This document shows positions 14,754 through 31,938 of a stretch of DNA of 64,000 nucleotides, piece after piece (position 1 is the stretch's first letter; the number at the start of each line of letters is the position of its first letter). The stretch lies in assembly GCF_000238335.3 (NCBI RefSeq), contig NZ_AHCB03000005.1, positions 1,116,001-1,180,000 of the forward strand, read 5' to 3'. The DNA is from Pseudoalteromonas marina. Its GTDB lineage: Bacteria; Pseudomonadota; Gammaproteobacteria; Enterobacterales; Alteromonadaceae. The notes below the pieces were generated by a model. That model was not told where the DNA came from and did not search any database. It was given only the letters and a program-made list of their open reading frames with translations. Made by a program: the position numbers and the translations under genes.

Positions 14754-15045
14754 GGCTATTTTATAGACGTAAAGCATGCTTACGTTATTGGCAAAGACGT
14801 AAAAGTGATTTATTCACAAAGAGGGTAAGAGGCGCTGCGCTTTTAGAGAAAGTGACAAACATAAAAGTTGATCATGAGTTTAGGTTTACTCTTTTACTCT
14901 TCATTCATTTCTCTTTGTGCAGTAATTTTGTCTTTGCCATAGTAAAAGGCGAATACTTTCAAATTGATGGATGAAGCCATTAAAGTGAACGATTCACAAA
15001 GAGGATAAGAGGCGCTGCGCTCTTAGAGCAAAGATTAATTGAATA
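14754..15045. repeat. Dispersed intergenic repeat, copies A and B
   Basis: Two copies of the same module lie about 180 bases apart. Each has TTCACAAAGAGG(G/A)TAAGAGGCGCTG in two adjoining blocks and then a run ending in TTAGAG. Related modules occur at 21128-21364 and 39195-39610 in other intergenic spacers, so this is a dispersed family rather than a local duplication. The GGCGCTGCGC core is partly self-complementary. No coding capacity is seen. Confidence 0.65.
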
Positions 15046-15154
15046 AATCTTAACTATTCTTTCAGGTTTGATTTTTAGATTTTGCTCAAAACGAATATTC
15101 GCATATGTGGCATGAGCAGACATCGAAGGTTTTTAATGTCTGAAGTCAAGATTT

Positions 15155-15199
15155 GACCCCATTCACCTCGACCCCATTCACCTCGACCCCATTCACCTT
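15155..15199. repeat. Three 15-bp tandem repeats
   Basis: The unit GACCCCATTCACCTC occurs three times head to tail (15155-15169, 15170-15184, 15185-15199; the last copy ends in T instead of C). It lies about 60 bases before the first attC-like site and may be a remnant of a mobile element end or a replication-slippage product. Confidence 0.85.
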
Positions 15200-15257: not shown

Positions 15258-15361
15258 TTATAACGCTTACAATAACGGGAAAACCGAGTGCTTTGGCACA
15301 AGGTGCCTGCGAGGATTTTTTCCAATGAGCGAAGCGAATTCTGTTAATTGTTTTGTTAGTT
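15258..15361 (-). other. attC-like site 1 (3-prime of the 281-codon frame)
   Basis: The ends carry TTATAAC and GTTAGTT, in the positions of integron core sites. The inner arms match imperfectly (TAACGCTTACAATAACGG against the reverse complement TAACAAAACAATTAACAG). The right core site overlaps the TAA stop of the minus-strand gene, which is the normal place for a cassette attC. The length is about 104 bases. Confidence 0.6.
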
Positions 15362-16162
15362 TCCATTTTCACCAAACTTATTCAACAACTTTTCAGTTAG
15401 CATTTGCGCCTGTTCAATATCTTGAAATTCCATATTTTGATGAATACGCTGCTTGATAAAATCTAATTTCAAGTAAATATCGTTATCCTCTACTATTTTT
15501 AACCCAAAGTCTGCATATGCTATGACTTTTAAATAGTTTGGGTTTCCAGTGTCAGGATCGTAATTTTGATACTCTTTTACCAGCCTTAATATTGACTGCT
15601 CTCCACCAGTCAAAGCAACACTTTCGGAAAGGCGGTATTTCAATTTATTAAATTTAACTCTTTGCTTTATTGTCTCTTCTCTGCTTAATTCATCTAAGCC
15701 TTTACTTTGAAAATATTCTCTATCCGAAACAGCCCATAACTCTGCTACGGCATTATCGGAACCTAATTCAATTGCTTTAAAAAGTAATTCAACAAAATCA
15801 TCAGATATAAAATTAAATTGTGAACAGCGCTCAAAACGAGACAAAACCTCTTCGATATACTCGTAGGGCTCACCCACCTCATTTACTTTGCTCATCCATT
15901 TATCAAGTTCATCTTGAGTTTTGGGTATTGCGCTGCAACGACGTATTTCTTTTGCTTCAAGTAAGTATTCTTCTGCTGATGCAAGTTCACTAACACCTAT
16001 ATCAGTTTCAATCGTTGATTTTTCTTTGCGCTTTAAGTCTTTAGAAACTGCGTTTTCACTATCATTTTTATCGCTAAACTTTTCAATTTCACTATGTTCT
16101 TTTGTAATAAAATAGAAAACAACTAAGGCCAAAATTGATATAGCAAGAGCAAATTTTTTCAC
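15356..16162 (-). CDS. Cassette gene: membrane-anchored protein of unknown function
   Basis: I do not recognise the family. About 268 residues: a short N-terminal hydrophobic anchor (FALAISILALVVFYFI) and a long charged, mostly helical region after it. It is predicted to be a single-pass membrane protein with its bulk on one side, probably the periplasm. The frame runs upstream to a TTG at 16201, but that lies inside the neighbouring attC site; the GTG at 16160-16162, preceded by CGAGG, is a better start and gives MKKFALAIS at the N-terminus. The stop codon overlaps the attC-like site at its 3-prime end. Confidence 0.6.
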   Translation of the reverse strand: MKKFALAISILALVVFYFITKEHSEIEKFSDKNDSENAVSKDLKRKEKSTIETDIGVSELASAEEYLLEAKEIRRCSAIPKTQDELDKWMSKVNEVGEPYEYIEEVLSRFERCSQFNFISDDFVELLFKAIELGSDNAVAELWAVSDREYFQSKGLDELSREETIKQRVKFNKLKYRLSESVALTGGEQSILRLVKEYQNYDPDTGNPNYLKVIAYADFGLKIVEDNDIYLKLDFIKQRIHQNMEFQDIEQAQMLTEKLLNKFGENGN

Positions 16163-16177
16163 GAAACCTCGACAGGA

Positions 16178-16276
16178 AACTAACGCCCCAAGAAGGGGCA
16201 ATTACCGCAGGCTAAAATACGGAACGAAGTGACGGGAGCCTGCGCGTAATTGTCCCGCTTACTTGGTTTGTTAGGT
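16178..16276 (-). other. attC-like site 2
   Basis: The outer sites are AACTAAC (16178-16184) and GTTAGGT (16270-16276, a perfect GTTRRRY on the plus strand). The inner arms CGCCCCAAGAAGGGGCAATTAC and GTAATTGTCCCGCTTACTTGG pair imperfectly, and the centre holds CGCAGGCT paired with AGCCTGCG. It begins one base after the stop codon of the 118-codon gene, as in integron cassettes. Confidence 0.75.
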
Positions 16277-16277
16277 G

Positions 16278-16634
16278 TTACCTGCAAGACCACTTAATAT
16301 CATCAATGCCATCAGTTTCTTCTAAAACCTCTCTAACGGCATTCAAAAGTACCCTAGCCAACTCAATAGGAGCTTTATTTCTGACGAAAAAACCTTTGGC
16401 ATATGGTTCGAGAAAACACTGCCACTCTGTTTGCGAACTTTCTACGTTACCACAGCATAATCGGTATTCGTTGTCGTCCAGACAGTACTCAACATACCAG
16501 CCCCAATCCTCATATTCTGGATAGGAAGTAATGATACCTTTTTGTGCCAACTTCTTACTTATCCAAAATGCTAATTCAGCCCCAAAAACCCCAGGGTTAA
16601 CCTGAGAATCATCAGGTAAAAATGGTTTGAACAT
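16278..16634 (-). CDS. Cassette gene: small soluble protein of unknown function
   Basis: A 118-residue acidic protein rich in aromatic residues and with five Cys (including YRLCCGN and KWSCR at the very end). No signal peptide or transmembrane segment. I cannot name the family. The start ATG at 16634 lacks a strong ribosome binding site. The stop codon abuts attC-like site 2, and only 42 bases separate it from the upstream cassette gene, without a full attC between them. Confidence 0.6.
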   Translation of the reverse strand: MFKPFLPDDSQVNPGVFGAELAFWISKKLAQKGIITSYPEYEDWGWYVEYCLDDNEYRLCCGNVESSQTEWQCFLEPYAKGFFVRNKAPIELARVLLNAVREVLEETDGIDDIKWSCR

Positions 16635-16676
16635 TTCGGACTTAAAATTTGTCCTATTAATCAGTTTGTTATCTTT

Positions 16677-17324
16677 CTATTCCTTACTCGATATTGATGA
16701 GAACTCTTTAAAAACAACTTCAGAAAGAGAATGTACATCCGCTCTAATTTGCTTCCACGCCCTCATTACGTCTTGCTCTGAATAATCTTTAGGATTACGT
16801 ATATGTGGATTTTCACCACTCTTTCTATCGGCCAAATATATTTCGTCACCTAAAATAAGCTCTGAGAGCAAGCAGGCCCATGTAGATCTAACTTTTCGAA
16901 GTTGGTCACAAACTGCCATAGTTGATTCTAAACTTATCGCCTTAGAGTGACCAAGCATTCTTGTGTTTACCCATAACTTTGAAGCATGCATCTCAATTGA
17001 ATCTTGAGTTTCCTTTATATTACCGTGATATTTGAAAATGCGTGTCCCTACGTTCTCAGTCAAATGATCAATATGGGTTAATGCATCTAGAGACTCTTTT
17101 AGGTACGAAGAATGTTTTTCTGAGATTTCCTTTCTCAGATGTTCCACAAAAGAGCTGTTATCATTTAGTTCTTTTTGCAATTTTACAATTGTTTTCTGTC
17201 TTTCATTGCTTAGGTATAGGTTCACTATTGAAAACAACCCAGCTATGATTGCGCCAACCATGGCAGCTATTACTTTTGTTTCTAACCCGGAAATAAGTAA
17301 CGATAAATTTTTAAGCTCTTCCAA
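16677..17324 (-). CDS. Cassette gene: membrane-anchored coiled-coil protein of unknown function
   Basis: A 215-residue protein with one hydrophobic segment near the N-terminus (VIAAMVGAIIAGLFSIVNLYL), then a predicted coiled coil (RQKTIVKLQKELNDN and following) and a helical C-terminal domain. The start is a TTG at 17324, supported by GGAGG seven bases upstream and about ten bases inside the cassette from the core site, a typical position for a cassette gene's own ribosome binding site. Function unknown. Its 3-prime end lacks a complete attC; only AGATAACAAAC remains after the stop. Confidence 0.6.
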   Translation of the reverse strand: MEELKNLSLLISGLETKVIAAMVGAIIAGLFSIVNLYLSNERQKTIVKLQKELNDNSSFVEHLRKEISEKHSSYLKESLDALTHIDHLTENVGTRIFKYHGNIKETQDSIEMHASKLWVNTRMLGHSKAISLESTMAVCDQLRKVRSTWACLLSELILGDEIYLADRKSGENPHIRNPKDYSEQDVMRAWKQIRADVHSLSEVVFKEFSSISSKE

Positions 17325-17453
17325 GCCAAGGCCTCCTAGAAAGATAACGCCTCACTAAGAGGCTAAAAATTGTTGGTTATAATATGCGAGGTACGAGCAA
17401 GAACCAACTGTTTTTAGTGATCTTCACCCGATAAAGTGGACACCGTCCACGTT

Positions 17454-18341
17454 TTAATTAACTGCCGATTCAAACTCGGCAGGTGATTTATATCCTAAAC
17501 TCGAATGCAATCGCTGTCTATTGTAAAAATAATTTAGGTAAACCTTTAATTTTGATAATAGTTTACCGCTGCTCTCAAATTTATTTCCTCGAATTAAATC
17601 TGCTTTAAGCGAATGAAAGAACGACTCGACTTCTGCGTTGTCAGTACAGCACCCAGGCCTATTCATACTGGCTTTGATGTTTTTGCTAGCCAAATACTTT
17701 TGTACAACGTGAGCACGGTATTCTGCACCTCGGTCAGTGTGAAATAATACACTTTCTGTTGGCTGTCGTTTTTTTATCGCAAGCCTTAGCGCCTTTAACG
17801 TAAGCTCCGTTGTTTTGTTTTTACCAAACGCCCAGCCGATTACTCGACGTGAATATAAGTCGATAACCACTGCAAGGTAATGCCAACGAGCACCGACTTT
17901 TAAATACGTAATATCGCCAGACCACTGTTGGTTGATTGCCGTGGCCTTTTCACTACCTTTGCGTTTATTTTCTATCTCTTTATAAAAGAACTTAACCTTC
18001 GCCGGTTTGCTGTAAGTCTTAAGCGCCCTAGCTCTTAAACCGTTTTCTCGCATTAAGCGGGCAACACGTTTTTGGCTTGTGTTAACACCTTCTTTTTTTA
18101 GCGCATGAAATACGCGTGGGCTACCATAGGTTTGATGATTGACATTGAAGACGTGTTTTATCTTCAGCAACAAATTAGCATCTGACAGCGCTCTAGCTGA
18201 CACTGTACGCTCACGCCAAGCATAAAACCCACTACGCGACACATTAAGCCAAGAACACAAGTATTTGACGCCTAAGGCTTGTCCGAACTTTTGGATGAAT
18301 CCAAATCGTTCTGATGTACTTCCGCCAGATACCGTTGCCAC
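17454..18341 (-). CDS. IS3-family transposase OrfB (DDE integrase domain)
   Basis: The catalytic part of the transposase, with an rve-type integrase core. The first Asp is in SGDITYLKVG, the second in LFHTDRGAEY and the Glu in DNAEVESFFHSLK, about 35 residues apart as in the DD(35)E class. The N-terminal HTH_21-like segment contains YGSPRVFHALKKEGV. The frame begins at a GTG just after the slippery sequence, but the functional protein is expected to be the OrfAB fusion made by a -1 frameshift at 18341-18347. Confidence 0.92.
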   Translation of the reverse strand: MATVSGGSTSERFGFIQKFGQALGVKYLCSWLNVSRSGFYAWRERTVSARALSDANLLLKIKHVFNVNHQTYGSPRVFHALKKEGVNTSQKRVARLMRENGLRARALKTYSKPAKVKFFYKEIENKRKGSEKATAINQQWSGDITYLKVGARWHYLAVVIDLYSRRVIGWAFGKNKTTELTLKALRLAIKKRQPTESVLFHTDRGAEYRAHVVQKYLASKNIKASMNRPGCCTDNAEVESFFHSLKADLIRGNKFESSGKLLSKLKVYLNYFYNRQRLHSSLGYKSPAEFESAVN

Positions 18342-18646
18342 TTTTTTAGCAGGTCATTCTCCTGCTTGAGACGCTCATTTTCTTTCTTAAGCTTTTGAAT
18401 GTTATCCAGCTCTTTTTTTGTTGGGAGTTTACTCATTGTTTTGTTGTTGCTTTGATAGCGCGGCGTGTTTTTAAACTTACCTTCTCGATATTCTTTTCGC
18501 CAACGACTAAGCATTAACGGATGAATATCCAGCGCCTCGGCAACGTCCTTTGACATGACATCGTCTCGTAAGCTTAGTTCGACTGCTTTGATTTTGAAAT
18601 TAACGGGGTAAAACCATGTCTTTCTGGGTTGGGTATATCTAGGCAT
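18272..18646 (-). CDS. IS3-family transposase OrfA (helix-turn-helix)
   Basis: A 124-residue DNA-binding subunit with a HTH motif (MSKDVAEALDIHPLMLSRWRKE) and a C-terminal leucine-zipper-like coiled coil (IQKLKKENERLKQENDLL). It binds the IS ends and regulates transposition. Its 3-prime end overlaps orfB by 70 bases in the -1 frame. The ATG at 18646 lies 52 bases from the right IS end. Confidence 0.9.
   Translation of the reverse strand: MPRYTQPRKTWFYPVNFKIKAVELSLRDDVMSKDVAEALDIHPLMLSRWRKEYREGKFKNTPRYQSNNKTMSKLPTKKELDNIQKLKKENERLKQENDLLKKWQRYLAEVHQNDLDSSKSSDKP
18341..18347 (-). other. Probable -1 ribosomal frameshift site in the IS element
   Basis: On the minus strand the sequence is AAAAAAG, read in orfA as CTA AAA AAG. 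Slipping one base back puts the ribosome into the orfB frame at GTG GCA ACG. A AAA AAG is a standard slippery heptamer of IS3-family elements. Confidence 0.8.
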
Positions 18647-18728
18647 GTTAGCCTCCTCAAAGTGATGAGGAGGTGTCCACTAAAACGGGTGAGGAGCATA
18701 GTCCTTTTGAGTGACTTGTTAGGTAAAT

Positions 18729-19151
18729 TTACCCTGCATCATATTTTGCGATTTTATCTTGCACAGATTTATGCATGTTATCAATTGAAGCGACTAATTG
18801 CTTGGATAAAAAATATATCTCTTCACTAGGTTTTTTTTCTTCTTTAATTTGTGTTATTGCATCGTTTATACCTAATTCCAAGTTTTCTATCAATTGAGTT
18901 TCAGTAGTAAAACCTACTTCTTCTTCTGGGAAGTGAAGACTAAGTTGTCTCTCTAATTTAATCAAAGAAGATTTTGCAGACTTACACGTTAGACTAGCCT
19001 CAATGATAAGGTTAAAAATTTCTTTTCTTTGTTCGTCTTTCTTATCTTTACGCGAACTCATGAAAGTGAAAAGTGAAAAAACGAAGCTAATTGATGATAA
19101 ACCAATAGCGATGATTGCTGTATACTCTTTAATTTCCATATACTCCGACAA
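18729..19151 (-). CDS. Cassette gene: membrane-anchored protein of unknown function
   Basis: About 136-140 residues with a single N-terminal transmembrane segment (YTAIIAIGLSSISFVFSLFTF), then a charged helical region starting SSRKDKKDEQRKEIF. The first possible start is TTG at 19151; the ATG at 19139, preceded by CGGAG, is an alternative. The overall plan (one helix, then cytoplasmic coiled region) resembles that of the neighbouring 215-codon cassette gene, though the sequences are not clearly related. The attC-like site 3, now split by the IS, follows its stop codon. Confidence 0.6.
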   Translation of the reverse strand: MSEYMEIKEYTAIIAIGLSSISFVFSLFTFMSSRKDKKDEQRKEIFNLIIEASLTCKSAKSSLIKLERQLSLHFPEEEVGFTTETQLIENLELGINDAITQIKEEKKPSEEIYFLSKQLVASIDNMHKSVQDKIAKYDAG

Positions 19152-19160
19152 CTCCTATTT

Positions 19161-19264
19161 ACCTAACGCCTCAATATGGGGCGCACAAATGCATGGCTAT
19201 ACTTGGCGAAGAATGAGCGCAAGCCATGCGTTTTTGCGTCCATGCCATAATTGATTTGTTATAC
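19161..19264 (-). other. attC-like site 4
   Basis: ACCTAAC (19161-19167, giving a perfect GTTAGGT on the minus strand) and GTTATAC (19258-19264) bound an imperfect palindrome. The inner pairing includes GCATGGCT with AGCCATGC and GGCGCA with TGCGTC. It sits directly upstream of the 140-codon gene and 3-prime of the DUF2971 gene. Confidence 0.7.
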
Positions 19265-19286
19265 AGGTAACTAATGTAGTGCTAAG

Positions 19287-20324
19287 TTACGTAATTTTAA
19301 TTTCGCTTTTTGATAAAGATATATTTGGGTAGTTCTCTAAGCAAAAATCAACAAGCATTTTCCATTCTTCGTCTGACGTTTTAGGGCCCTTCATGATGGC
19401 TACTTTATCTAACGTTGTATCATCGAGAGGGGCATCAATATATTGATTAACAATTTTATCCGTTTGGTGAAATGGAGTATCTGTAAAGTCATTAGGAGAA
19501 AGATAGTCTGCGTCAGACTCTGTAGCAAATATCCTAAATCTTACTTCTTTTTCACCTTTCCAATGTATACTTTTAGTTAATCCCAGCATTTTCAAATCAA
19601 ACCTTCCATTATTAATCACCGCATGGTGATTATGATAATCAAAATTGGGATATCCTACATAGGCAGGGCCATAGATGAAATTACTTAACAACCTTTTCTC
19701 AAGCTTAATTCCTTGCATAGACGTTTCTATTTCTATGCTTAATTTTTCACTTAACCTGATATAATTAAGAAAATCTTTCATCTTATTTACATCAATAAAG
19801 CTATCTTTTTGGTATTTGGTGGACAAGTCACTTCCTGATATATTTACACCATTCATTCCTTTGAACATATTGGTCGGAAATGTTAATCGACAACCCCCAT
19901 CACTCGTATATCGCCCCCAATGAAACAAAGACTCTTCTTTTTCATACGTCCAGCAGGATGCAAAACTATACTCCTGTGGCTTAGTGCCTAAATCAGAAGT
20001 ATAAACTTCCAACGGGTCGTTTACTTTATCTAATCTGGTAAACCTTATTGTTTTATTCTTTAGAATTAACAACGCTGTTTCAATTGATGTGTAATGAAAC
20101 AGATTATCTGGTATTAAACTCTTTGCGTCGGAAAGTGAAAGTCCATTTCCGCTTAAAGTATTTATTCCTTTTTCTACTACAAAGTTGTCACACTCCAAGC
20201 ATTTATGGATTACATTTTTTGTTTTTTCTTTTAAGCTTTCAATATCATAACTCTCTGATATGTAACCTATACCTATAGCTCTACACACAGGGCAGTAAAA
20301 ACTTAATGAGTTAAATTCACGCAT
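19287..20324 (-). CDS. Cassette gene: DUF2971 protein with N-terminal Cys pairs
   Basis: A 345-residue soluble protein. The N-terminal 50 residues hold two Cys pairs, CPVC and CLEC, about 30 residues apart, consistent with a zinc ribbon. The rest matches DUF2971: LFHYTSIETALLILKNKTI and FTRLDKVNDPLEVY are the hallmark motifs. The family is widespread in accessory DNA and its biochemical activity is not established; a role in defence or nucleic-acid metabolism is speculation. The start ATG at 20324 lies about 15 bases inside the cassette from the core site. The gene is flanked by attC-like sites 4 and 5. Confidence 0.75.
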   Translation of the reverse strand: MREFNSLSFYCPVCRAIGIGYISESYDIESLKEKTKNVIHKCLECDNFVVEKGINTLSGNGLSLSDAKSLIPDNLFHYTSIETALLILKNKTIRFTRLDKVNDPLEVYTSDLGTKPQEYSFASCWTYEKEESLFHWGRYTSDGGCRLTFPTNMFKGMNGVNISGSDLSTKYQKDSFIDVNKMKDFLNYIRLSEKLSIEIETSMQGIKLEKRLLSNFIYGPAYVGYPNFDYHNHHAVINNGRFDLKMLGLTKSIHWKGEKEVRFRIFATESDADYLSPNDFTDTPFHQTDKIVNQYIDAPLDDTTLDKVAIMKGPKTSDEEWKMLVDFCLENYPNISLSKSEIKIT

Positions 20325-20338
20325 GATGCTTAAAACCT

Positions 20339-20435
20339 GTATAACGCCTGGTTAAGAGGCGAGTTTAGCTTGCTAAAATGTTTGCCGAAGGCTCGAGCAA
20401 GCTATTACGAGACCTTCTTAAACCACTTGTTAGGT
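20339..20435 (-). other. attC-like site 5
   Basis: GTATAAC (20339-20345) and GTTAGGT (20429-20435) bound the palindrome. CGCCTGGTTAAGAGGC pairs imperfectly with GACCTTCTTAAACCACTTG, and TAGCTTGCT pairs with AGCAAGCTA in the middle. The right core lies ten bases after the stop of the lipoprotein gene. Confidence 0.75.
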
Positions 20436-20445
20436 ACACCTTGCT

Positions 20446-20820
20446 TTAAAGCCAAACCCTACAGCTTTCTGGGTTAGAACCATCGTCATAATCCCAGCTA
20501 ATGATAATGTTAGTTTTAGGATCAACAATATAAAATACTTTGCACTTGCCAACCCATTCCTTATTGGGGGCAGTAGGTAATACCTCGCTAATAAACCAAT
20601 GCTGTAAAATATAACCGTCTTTGTTTTTAGATGTGTGAGTAAACCCATCTCCAGAAATTAAGTAATCGGCTCTTATTAAATCACCAGCATCACCATAACG
20701 AGTTGGATCTAAAAATGGCGCTTTGCGACCAACTTTGTCATTTTGGTATTCTGCCCAAGGTCTGTTTCCAATAGAACAACCAGCAACCAAAATAACACAT
20801 AATAGAAAAATAAGTCTCAT
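20446..20820 (-). CDS. Cassette gene: small lipoprotein of unknown function
   Basis: A 124-residue protein with a lipoprotein signal peptide (LIFLLCVILVAGCS, lipobox VAGC) followed by a soluble domain that contains YILQHWFISEV and GKCKVFYIVDP. It is predicted to be exported and lipid-anchored. I do not recognise the family. The ATG at 20820 is preceded by AGGT. It is the first gene of the cassette cluster when read on the minus strand. An ACCTAAC core-like site (20835-20841) lies just upstream. Confidence 0.65.
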   Translation of the reverse strand: MRLIFLLCVILVAGCSIGNRPWAEYQNDKVGRKAPFLDPTRYGDAGDLIRADYLISGDGFTHTSKNKDGYILQHWFISEVLPTAPNKEWVGKCKVFYIVDPKTNIIISWDYDDGSNPESCRVWL

Positions 20821-21127
20821 AGCTAGACCTGTGTACCTAACATGTTTATAGCGAGCGAATCGCGCGTTCTTCTACCACAGCGTCGCTCGTTTGTCTGAAT
20901 TACTCATTTGTAACAAACTTCTTAACTATTTGCCAGCACTAGCAAAATATAGTAGTTCTGGTTTGTACTTAAGGACAAAAACGAGCGATTAGGTCGTTTT
21001 CCTGACTATGGAAGCAATATACTTTGACGAAATTCAAAAGTAACTGTTAACGACCGCTTATCGCTCTCTGTCAAATGAAGTCTAAATCTATTCCATTAAA
21101 CTTTAAGATAAGATATGAGCTAGTGCA

Positions 21128-21364
21128 GATTAATTAAAAGCATTGGCTGATTACGTTTATCTCATTTACTCCTCATTCGCTTCTCTTTGTGCGTTTTTTA
21201 GCTTTGCGTTATATAAAACGCGCTACTTTTATTGGTTGAAGCTCATAAAGTGAAAAATTCATAAAAAAGGGTAAGAGGCGCTGCGCCTTTAGAGGAAAGA
21301 TTAATTTACAGCATTGGCTGATTTACGTTTATCTAATTTACTCCTCACTCATTTCTATTTGTGC
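21128..21364. repeat. Dispersed intergenic repeat, copy C (duplicated)
   Basis: A 66-base segment beginning GATTAATT and containing AGCATTGGCTGAT occurs twice, at about 21128-21193 and 21298-21364, with about 85% identity. Between them lies GTAAGAGGCGCTGCGC, the same core as in the spacer at 14.8-15.0 kb. Both copies end in a T-rich run closing with TTTGTGC. Confidence 0.7.
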
Positions 21365-21404
21365 AATAGTTTGCCTAAAAGACGTTTTTATATAAACAAA
21401 CACA

Positions 21405-21443
21405 GCGTTTACAAACCAAAATATACATTGAGTTTGTAAACGC
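21405..21443 (-). terminator. Terminator of the TonB-dependent receptor gene
   Basis: GCGTTTACAAAC (21405-21416) and GTTTGTAAACGC (21432-21443) form a perfect 12-bp stem with a 15-base loop, 12 bases after the receptor stop codon on the minus strand. The T-tract is weak. Confidence 0.7.
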
Positions 21444-21455
21444 CGGCTTTATTTA

Positions 21456-23312
21456 TTACCAACTATACGTTGCACTTAAGGTATATTGCTCGCCGCGACC
21501 AGGTGTGCCGGGTATTTCTTCAAACGATTCATCCCATACATTGTCTGCAGCTAACGTAATAAATAAATTATTAATAACGGTTGGCGTAATTTTTAGCGAC
21601 AATTGCGTAAATAATGCGGTGTCTTTGCCACTGCGCAGTGCGTTTTCGTGCTGTTTACGCCACTCGTTATCAATCCTCATTTCTATTAGGTCGTTTGGTG
21701 TCCAAATTGCACCTAAGGTAACACGGTGATCAGGAAAATTTAACGCGTAAAAACTGGCGTCGATATCTGCATCACCATAGTTTTCTGACTTATTTAAGTA
21801 GGTGTAGCTTGCAATGAGCTCGGTTGTATCAAAATACTTAGTCGCAAAAAATTCAACGCCGGTGGCGTCTATGTCTACCGGATTAGCAAAGCGGGCAGAG
21901 CTAGAGTCAAAACTAAAAGTCCAATCGGTTAGGTTGTTATCCTCTCGGTAGAAAACTGCTGAATTAAGTTGCCAGGTTTGTTCTTGCATTAAATAGCCAA
22001 GCTCTAGGTTTTTAGTTGTTTCGCGCTCAAGGTTGTAATTACTTCTAAATAACCCGCCTTGATCACTGCCACCAATAGCGGTGTAACCTGCAACTTGGCT
22101 CGCTTGCGCATACGATAAGTAAACGGTTTGCTCAGAGCCATCACTGTTTTGAGTGTTTAGTGAAATATCGCCAATGAGCGAAAACTCAGAGTCATCTCGG
22201 TTTGTGTCGTCAAAAGCCGCACCTAGGCGAAGTGTTAATAGCTGGTTTTGTTTAAGGTCGATTTTATATTCAGGTAATACGCTCAGTTTGTAATAAGTGC
22301 GTGAGGTAAAATTATTCTCAAGTGTGGTCGACTCTATTTCATCTTCAATATATTGCGCTGAATAATTTACAGCAAACGCGGTGTTTTGTGCATGGCTTCC
22401 TGATACCGCAATCGATTTTACTTTAGTTTCATGAAATGCTTCAAAGGCGCTTGGATTCTCACGAGAAAATACATAATGGTCGTTGTGTTTTCTGTAATAG
22501 GCCGACACCTCAAAATGGCTATTATCTGCGTAATTTTGCTGGTGGTTAAGCATGAGTAAGCGGGTTTCTAGTTCTTCAGTTTCGTTTACGCCAAATGGTG
22601 TGTACATATTTGGCCAACCAAAAAACTTGTCTTGTGAGCCATACAGCACATCGGTTTGCGAATCCGCACCTATTAACTGTATGCGCGCAGAGGCGCGATT
22701 AAAATCGTGATCGCCGTTTTCTATTGAGCCGTCACTTTGTGAATGAGAATATTCGCCCTCAAAGCCAACCTGCCAATTTTTAGCATCGTCGACATCGGTG
22801 CTTATTCCTGCGTAAATACTTTGTAAGTTAAAGTTGTTTGTACCGGTACCAACAGAGACATTGCCACCAGTTGTGATGGGTTTAAAACCAAACGAAATCG
22901 ATCCCACAGAGCTGTTCATACCGTTTAAGGCATTGTCGGCTCCGGTTAAAATGTAAGGTCCAGTTAGCATTTGCGGTGCAATTGGGAGCTCAGCAACGTA
23001 ATGACCTGTTTGAGGGTCGAGTAGGGTAGCACTGCCGACTCTAAACCCTGTGTTTTCGAAAATACCACCACGGATTGTTACATCAGCTTGGGCTTCTGCC
23101 ATATTACGTGATTGTAAATCAACACGAGGGTCGTATTCTAAATTAGAGACGGGGGAGTCAAAGGTCCCAACAGGTAATTTATTTGCCGTGGCCGATGCCT
23201 CAACAGTAATTTGTTCTATTGCTGTTTCGGTGTTGCTTGTAGCTTGCGCATAAGAAAAAGGCGTAACGCTGCACAGCAGTGCAGAAAATATAAAATGCTC
23301 AGTGCGATTCAT
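21456..23312 (-). CDS. TonB-dependent outer-membrane receptor
   Basis: An outer-membrane beta barrel of about 618 residues that takes up a chelated nutrient with energy from TonB. Signal peptide HFIFSALLCSVTPFSYAQA, then a TonB-box-like EQITVEAS, a plug domain (ADVTIRGGIFENTGFRVG) and a barrel ending YTLSATYSW with the terminal aromatic residue typical of outer-membrane proteins. The frame opens at 23339, but the Met at 23312 directly before RTEHFIF is the likelier start. Shorter than siderophore receptors of 700 or more residues, closer to BtuB-like or small copper/iron receptors. A possible Fur box lies upstream. The substrate is not determined. Confidence 0.88.
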   Translation of the reverse strand: MNRTEHFIFSALLCSVTPFSYAQATSNTETAIEQITVEASATANKLPVGTFDSPVSNLEYDPRVDLQSRNMAEAQADVTIRGGIFENTGFRVGSATLLDPQTGHYVAELPIAPQMLTGPYILTGADNALNGMNSSVGSISFGFKPITTGGNVSVGTGTNNFNLQSIYAGISTDVDDAKNWQVGFEGEYSHSQSDGSIENGDHDFNRASARIQLIGADSQTDVLYGSQDKFFGWPNMYTPFGVNETEELETRLLMLNHQQNYADNSHFEVSAYYRKHNDHYVFSRENPSAFEAFHETKVKSIAVSGSHAQNTAFAVNYSAQYIEDEIESTTLENNFTSRTYYKLSVLPEYKIDLKQNQLLTLRLGAAFDDTNRDDSEFSLIGDISLNTQNSDGSEQTVYLSYAQASQVAGYTAIGGSDQGGLFRSNYNLERETTKNLELGYLMQEQTWQLNSAVFYREDNNLTDWTFSFDSSSARFANPVDIDATGVEFFATKYFDTTELIASYTYLNKSENYGDADIDASFYALNFPDHRVTLGAIWTPNDLIEMRIDNEWRKQHENALRSGKDTALFTQLSLKITPTVINNLFITLAADNVWDESFEEIPGTPGRGEQYTLSATYSW

Positions 23313-31745: not shown

Positions 31746-31767
31746 TTAGCCATTGGTTAATACAACA

Positions 31768-31938
31768 TTCAGAAGAGGTGCGATACTTAGGTATTTAATG
31801 GTAGGTGACGAACGCCCATAACCATTAAAGAGGGAAGTACTCGCCGAGAAAACCAACGTTACGTCGATGTTGTTTTTCGGTTTATGGGGCTGAATCCTCA
31901 AAACTGTCACCAATCTAGGTGGAGAGCTTCTGGCAGTG
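31768..31938 (+). promoter_or_regulatory. Lysine riboswitch (L box)
   Basis: The leader before lysC contains the L-box landmarks in order: AGAAGAGGTGCG near the 5-prime end, GGGAAGTACTCGCCGAGAAA in the middle, GGGGCTGAATCC, an ACTGTCACC segment and AGGTGGAGAGCTTCTGG at the 3-prime end. CAGAAG (31770-31775) pairs with CTTCTG (31928-31933) as the closing helix P1. In this class lysine binding to the RNA shuts off the downstream gene, here the first enzyme of lysine synthesis. Confidence 0.92.

Follow-up and report, generated by a model that had tools for sequence, protein, structure and literature searches.

Introduction

An integron is defined by an integrase gene (intI) lying beside its own attachment site (attI), and both attI and the attC sites of its cassettes carry consensus core boxes. 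Clusters of attC sites lacking integron integrases (CALINs), reportedly the subject of a paper by Cury and others, are usually seen as leftovers. Here we analysed a minus-strand cassette array in a 64,000-nucleotide stretch of Pseudoalteromonas marina DNA (C4:1116001-1180000, contig NZ_AHCB03000005.1; genome size 4.19 Mb), hereafter the window. Judged from its sequence, the array is an integron that keeps a putative attI and has no integrase gene. Our preferred reading, with a probability of about 0.72, is that this attI would belong to a spread lineage of intI-less attI sites, and that the cassettes would have been moved by an integrase (IntI) supplied from elsewhere.

Statements on papers cited by PMC number refer to the accessible portions of their texts. 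CALINs hold at least two attC sites with cassettes, have no intI nearby and can be used in trans (PMC12444791, PMC7923331). Loss of intI with retention of attC sites is described for chromosomal integrons in both Xanthomonas and Treponema phagedenis (PMC12444791, PMC3607928); in Xanthomonas, intI is found at one locus (ilvD) and other CALINs at seven loci, and the arrays were more stable after intI inactivation (PMC12444791). The window array resembles CALINs in carrying attC sites and cassettes without a nearby intI, and resembles the Xanthomonas and Treponema phagedenis integrons in having retained attC sites without intI. Unlike a CALIN, it keeps an attI-like head that is a member of a dispersed lineage. 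Unlike the Xanthomonas CALIN loci, for which the accessible text of PMC12444791 mentions no attI copies, attI-like heads occur in 29 contexts in Pseudoalteromonas, and the genes behind these heads differ between relatives. An attI away from intI is also found in Delta-attI-type class 1 cassettes, where it is usable by IntI1 (PMC12901181); however, Delta-attI ends a gene cassette, whereas the window attI opens the array without a gene. CALINs arising from intI loss are already known. A dispersal of orphan attI heads was not described in the literature searched (mostly outside subscription papers), including the accessible texts of PMC9229058, PMC12444791, PMC3607928, PMC11023631, PMC9345347, PMC10214605, PMC10782965 and PMC12901181.

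Results

The attI-like head and the integrase genes

Read along the minus strand, the array consisted of an attI-like head, cassettes 1-3, an attC split by an insertion sequence (IS), cassette 4, an attC, cassette 5 and a weak attC. The head (20833..21067), with its core box GTTAGGT at 20835-20841 (both on the minus strand), was assigned by homology. It matched the attI region of the integron on contig C5 at 75% identity (169 nt), the head at C11:707.3k at 77% (176 nt) and C11:603.9k at 89% (216 nt), and was 75-83% alike to four heads that lie beside intact intI genes (loci L202, L207, L239 and L240). A complete integron has intI next to an attI that heads the array; here such an attI was present by homology and the adjoining intI was absent. 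A TIGR02249 profile search found no intI in the window, and none is adjacent. An earlier reading of the letters alone (the sequence-only reading) had called positions 15258..20435 an integrase-less attC cluster. The label is correct, but the reading missed the head, which lies at the array start. Since an attI-like head is retained, the array is better regarded as an integron without integrase than as a loose cassette cluster.

The closest intact intI (C4:1271398-1272345; TIGR02249, 492 bits) lies ~134.6 kb from the attI core in the same genome. The earlier claim that the array depends on an integrase from elsewhere holds. The intact IntI of the genome aligned end to end with IntI4 (2a3v, 8-326, E 7.2e-119). 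The window array is CALIN-like, in a host genome that probably can make an integron integrase. Two other intI copies in the genome are defective, one through three in-frame stops (C4:1471253), the other broken (C5:244816-245664). Fragments were found as well: 40 residues at C11:515421, and short 5' pieces following the heads at C11:160k and C11:707k. This one genome therefore spans several stages of intI decay: intact, with in-frame stops, broken, and reduced to short 5' pieces beside attI heads.

A family of heads across Pseudoalteromonas

Heads were searched for in 108 Pseudoalteromonas genomes by scoring up to six candidates in each and fetching the stronger matches, a sampling of heads that is not exhaustive. 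Matches (E <= 1e-3) occurred in at least 63 of the 108 genomes, many of them only to the flanking repeat that the query also held. The 59 heads used for a tree comprised 34 of class II, 19 of class I and six unclassed. A head was placed in class I if the match reached the intI start, intact or truncated, and the link between class and intI is thus partly a matter of definition. Class II heads share an extra tail of ~55 nt before they diverge, a definition independent of intI. The window head is a class II head and showed 67-83% identity to all 19 class I heads. Likeness between the two classes peaked at head positions 16-45 (0.93 and 0.90), was 0.80-0.85 in the further blocks 76-105 and 151-180, and was lower at 106-150 (0.63-0.66).

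The 34 class II heads came from fetched stretches of 18 genomes. No IntI-like sequence was found behind them in these stretches, in which the flanks at L219 and L218 span only 276 and 1640 nt, respectively. IntI-like matches at L214 (~30% identical) were rejected, as they sit in a 391-aa open reading frame (ORF) for a phage-type integrase. The 34 heads represent 29 contexts, with only five orthologous pairs joined by a comparison of the 6 kb on their far side. In a tree of the shared head part, 29 of the 34 class II heads and one unclassed head formed one group (support 94/95, just below the star of the tool, with bootstrap not settled). The class labels needed 2 changes on this tree compared with 15.8 in shuffles, and none of 500 shuffles was as low. 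The grouping of 29 class II heads makes a separate intI loss at every locus unlikely. In an order-wide search, the 235-nt head was compared with 295 genomes (E <= 1e-10, two candidates scored in each), and matches were found only in this genome and in one genome of another genus (69% identity). Arrays without intI are widespread both within this genome and across the genus (at least 64 attC places in the genome, 34 class II heads), rather than unusual as the sequence-only reading had put it for the location.

Gene change at orthologous heads

The five orthologous pairs were window/H71, L180/L201, L196/L215, L208/L217 and L211/L225. Within these pairs, the final 40 nt of the head showed identities of 1.00, 0.90, 0.95, 1.00 and 0.97, respectively, and the first 100 nt past the attI crossover showed identities of 0.20, 0.28, 0.33, 0.32 and 0.23. 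Likeness resumed at or past the last detected attC; at L201, 568 nt were available and nothing matched. High identity (90-100%) that ends at the crossover, with unrelated sequence beyond, points to integron recombination at attI. With breakpoints at the crossover in all five pairs, such recombination, presumably by IntI acting in trans, appears to be the best explanation. Sites of the attC type were detected behind the head in both members of L196/L215 and L208/L217, and in one member only of the other three pairs.

The closest named relative at the window locus is Pseudoalteromonas sp. H71, with 96% identity in the neighbouring TonB receptor. Window and H71 share an intI-less junction (93% over 530 nt). 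Behind its head H71 carried three other ORFs, two of them similar to DJ-1/PfpI and OsmC, which we infer to be cassettes from their position at attI and from core boxes recognized by eye. The two genes that flank the array in the window are 6829 nt apart there, 3449 nt in H71 and 394 nt at L030, and only 71-78 nt in four Pseudoalteromonas relatives (L031, L032, L033 and L060).

attC sites and cassettes

The attC sites were identified with a covariance model of our own (R1, as distinct from the IntegronFinder model), built from 21 attC sites in three further arrays of this genome and none from the window. Each source array adjoins intI or a broken intI copy, and a few atypical sites there were excluded. 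The fold of the R1 alignment contained 29 pairs, of which 19 showed compensatory change. At E <= 1, R1 returned only five matches in the window, all on the minus strand and inside the array interval. These were the attC of cassette 1 (20339..20435; 76.6 bits, E 6.7e-18), of cassette 2 (19161..19264; 71.4 bits, E 1.7e-16) and of cassette 4 (16178..16276; 80.8 bits, E 4.7e-19), the right-hand portion of the cassette 3 attC (17342..17417; match 17342-17436, 49.7 bits, E 1.2e-10), and a weak terminal candidate (15258..15361; 18.8 bits, E 0.027). The IS cuts off the left-hand portion of that split attC (18699..18724, minus strand); once the two portions were rejoined, the bottom strand folded at -17.5 kcal/mol compared with -6.7 ± 2.0 kcal/mol in 200 shuffles. 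An IS-split attC on C11 gave a score of 29 when rejoined and, from a misplaced start, a fold of -19.5 compared with -7.8 ± 2.4 in shuffles. The palindromes proposed earlier as attC sites were thus strongly scored in four of five cases (E <= 1.2e-10), which exceeds the two attC sites of a CALIN. A simple home-made attC finder, superseded by R1, had caught the sites at 16178, 19161 and 20339 and missed the split and weak ones.

Genome-wide, R1 gave 67 matches representing at least 64 distinct attC places, which were sorted by eye into 17 groups; at least two sites were present in 13 of these. This census is a lower bound, since only 150 of 2897 first-look candidates were scored and a further scan added more. 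The sites make up ~0.15% of the genome (64 sites of ~100 nt). An exact-pattern search for short attC sites in the whole genome found one palindrome outside the window. The attC at 20339-20435 was near-identical to one in another array of the same genome (L015:15375-15471), and the genes before them differ, so that it looks as if genes had been swapped in front of an attC.

Minus-strand ORFs alternate with the attC sites, and the left core GTTAGGT (plus strand) occurs at 16270, 18718 and 20429. The alternation and the three perfect cores noted by the sequence-only reading were borne out; the site near 17342 proved to be the IS-split attC, in which the IS had gone unnoticed. Where that reading had placed six minus-strand genes without recognized families, the interval 15258..20435 holds five cassette ORFs and two IS ORFs, and the sixth cassette ORF lies outside it, as does the attI-like head. 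Stop codons are not all within about ten bases of a site as proposed; the gaps are about 10, 22, 4 and 1 bases, with one overlap of 6 bases.

All cassette ORFs are on the minus strand. Cassette 1 encodes 124 aa (20446..20820), with no Pfam or PADLOC match at E <= 1 and a single weak NCBIfam match (E 0.21). Cassette 2 encodes 345 aa (19287..20324) with weak similarity to DUF2971 (Pfam E 0.0014, 20.3 bits, under the 22-bit cut-off), and cassette 3 encodes 140 aa (18729..19151) with weak matches only (best E 0.0089). Cassette 4 holds ORF a of 215 aa (16677..17324; weak matches only, best E 0.0016) and ORF b of 118 aa (16278..16634; no match at E <= 1). Cassette 5 encodes up to 281 aa (15356..16201; no match at E <= 1); its start is uncertain and the longest form enters the attC. 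None of the six ORFs had a match above the curated Pfam or NCBIfam cut-offs, PADLOC matches all had E >= 0.0016, and no relatives were found at E 1e-4 in the other fetched stretches searched. No attC was found by the covariance model between the two ORFs of cassette 4, which either form one two-gene cassette or have lost the attC between them. An Rfam scan of the window found no family at the array; it detected a lysine riboswitch (RF00168) at 31765-31937 (E 1.6e-23).

An IS3-family element in attC sites

The attC of cassette 3 is interrupted by an IS3-family insertion sequence (17418..18698, minus strand; NF033516, E 1.5e-88) with the target duplication CTA. Its ORF at 17454-18341 passed the IS3 cut-off (E 1.5e-88), and the ORF at 18272-18646 fell below it (E 9.4e-14). 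The element shows the features of the family: two overlapping ORFs, a DDE transposase, inverted repeats (by eye) and a 3-bp target duplication. In all seven matches within its own genome, the left end abuts an attC at its 5' half, always in one orientation, as judged by eye. Across the genus, 17 of 19 distinct sites bearing an IS end were in attC (by eye), two of the 17 in degenerate cores (L125 and L130); the exceptions were in G100 (L124/L142) and G102 (L127). Matches without an IS end and two without a locus were excluded from this count, and shared insertions were counted once. Three complete copies examined had the target duplications CTA, ACA and CAA. Independent insertions thus occupy the same attC position in the same orientation, and the element is attC-targeting. 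Known attC-targeting mobile elements are the IS1111-attC types and group IIC-attC introns (PMC9229058). The window element is like them in inserting in attC; unlike them, it belongs to the IS3 family and makes a 3-bp target duplication. IS3 copies are reported inside Vibrio cholerae cassettes (PMC11023631), and apart from these no IS3-family case of attC targeting was found in the literature searched, as far as its accessible text goes.

Flanks and repeats

On the side of the head away from the array, a conserved sequence (21068..21130) is common to other loci and also lies beside unrelated genes, and is not a proven element end. Another, at the array end (15049..15112), is common to H71, whose array end it matches at 75% over 64 nt, and to other loci. 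Repeat copies of ~58 and 42 nt are found on both sides of the array (14794-15031 and 21127-21364), with more copies on the TonB side in H71. The 24-nt sequence GGGTCAAATCTTGACTTCAGACAT (<=2 mismatches) has 20 copies in the genome, several at cassette-array ends (window 15136-15159; L011 4762 and 5458; L013 14153 and 14201; L015 13467). We take this repeat to be perhaps part of a REP/RAYT-type element.

A set of four genes (496, 935, 701 and 154 aa), near-identical in six Pseudoalteromonas genomes (L259, L260, L261, L267, L269 and L270), was labelled as similar to strand-biased circularizing elements (SE) by its gene order (like intA-tfp-intB-srap), protein lengths and two Phage_integrase matches. 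At L259, the copy checked, its neighbours are MerR and MerC genes. The window held no relative of the L259 set, and the intA-tfp-intB-srap order by an element end is thus lacking there.

Discussion

In our reading, the window holds a chromosomal Pseudoalteromonas integron in which attI and cassettes would have been kept and intI is absent. Its attI would come from a lineage of heads without intI that became dispersed over many chromosomal positions, and an IntI made elsewhere in the cell would have moved cassettes in and out at this attI and the attC sites. The source may be the intact gene ~134.6 kb away or a past one. Several observations weigh against this. A simple scan of 20700-21460 found no sigma-70-like promoter such as the Pc of a complete integron, and the terminal attC of the window is weak. 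The main group leaves out five of the 34 class II heads, and in four of these the core sequence is class I-like. Three heads that do have intI (L239-L241) branch close to the group without belonging to it. Together this suggests that losses or exchanges happened more than once. No attC was found at E 0.01 in the H71 array (L029, L199) or at L201, nor by the model on the cassette side of L211, and the H71 result slightly lowers our confidence in this reading as a whole. The genomes of the pairs L208/L217 and L211/L225 now have no integron integrase over the profile cut-off. In the genus, TIGR02249 matched above its cut-off in 83 of 108 genomes: 10 of the 18 with class II heads and 73 of the 90 others. 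Dependence on an integrase in trans had led us to expect intI in all 18; instead 8 had no match over the cut-off, compared with 17 of the 90 others. As genomes with class II heads are the poorer in intI, there is no sign that the heads need a resident IntI to persist, and the arrays in these eight genomes are probably relics. Differential loss from longer ancestral arrays is a possible source of similar breakpoints. Loss of cassettes from a longer array usually needs IntI as well.

Alternatively, a complete integron may have lost intI by deletion at this very locus, with cassettes differing through later losses only. The several decay stages of intI in this genome and the intI loss known in Xanthomonas (PMC12444791) are in its favour, yet H71 has an intI-less structure that matches the window across the breakpoint (93% over 530 nt), and the grouping of most class II heads across many loci suggests that loss was mostly not local; we consider this origin unlikely. 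It is far less probable still that the cassettes were inserted singly by IntI at a chance chromosomal site (attG) with no attI. Groups of attC sites without a detected head do exist in the genome (L184, L185, L186 and L188), but the head at 20833-21067 shares homology with attI regions found ahead of intI at other loci, which contradicts this origin unless the head is inactive.

Two further proposals concern how heads could spread, and we judge both improbable. The array and its flanks might form a non-autonomous mobile unit that depends on a different recombinase, for example one of the SE type. Flank sequences are common to several loci, near-empty counterparts of the L196/L215 insertion exist in G096 and G043, and one flank sequence adjoins the SE-like four-gene set in 6 of the 12 stretches fetched for that flank. 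However, that flank likeness covers only ~55 nt, the six sets represent one near-identical element, no shared terminal repeats were shown, and the flank sequence occurs beside unrelated genes too. No such set lies beside any head in the stretches searched, and no IntB-like protein of the set was found in this genome, in a search without a known positive. Much the same low probability attaches to a spread of the head as a gene-less attI 'cassette' within excised cassette circles. Class 1 integron cassettes ending in a partial attI do recombine (PMC12901181), and five of the 34 class II heads (L211, L225, L218, L206b and L224) lie within ~470 nt after an attC on the same strand, but the other 29 have no detected attC so closely before them.

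Beyond our preferred reading of the window as an intI-less integron served from elsewhere, we tentatively suggest, with more doubt than confidence, that intI-less attI platforms multiply within and between chromosomes as satellite landing pads served in trans by the integrase of the cell, so that platform and integrase would be inherited separately. Annotation that seeks intI and attC would probably miss such orphan attI sites as such. Because conserved heads at many loci are combined with strain differences that start at the crossover, the use of integrase-less arrays in trans becomes directly testable in Pseudoalteromonas.

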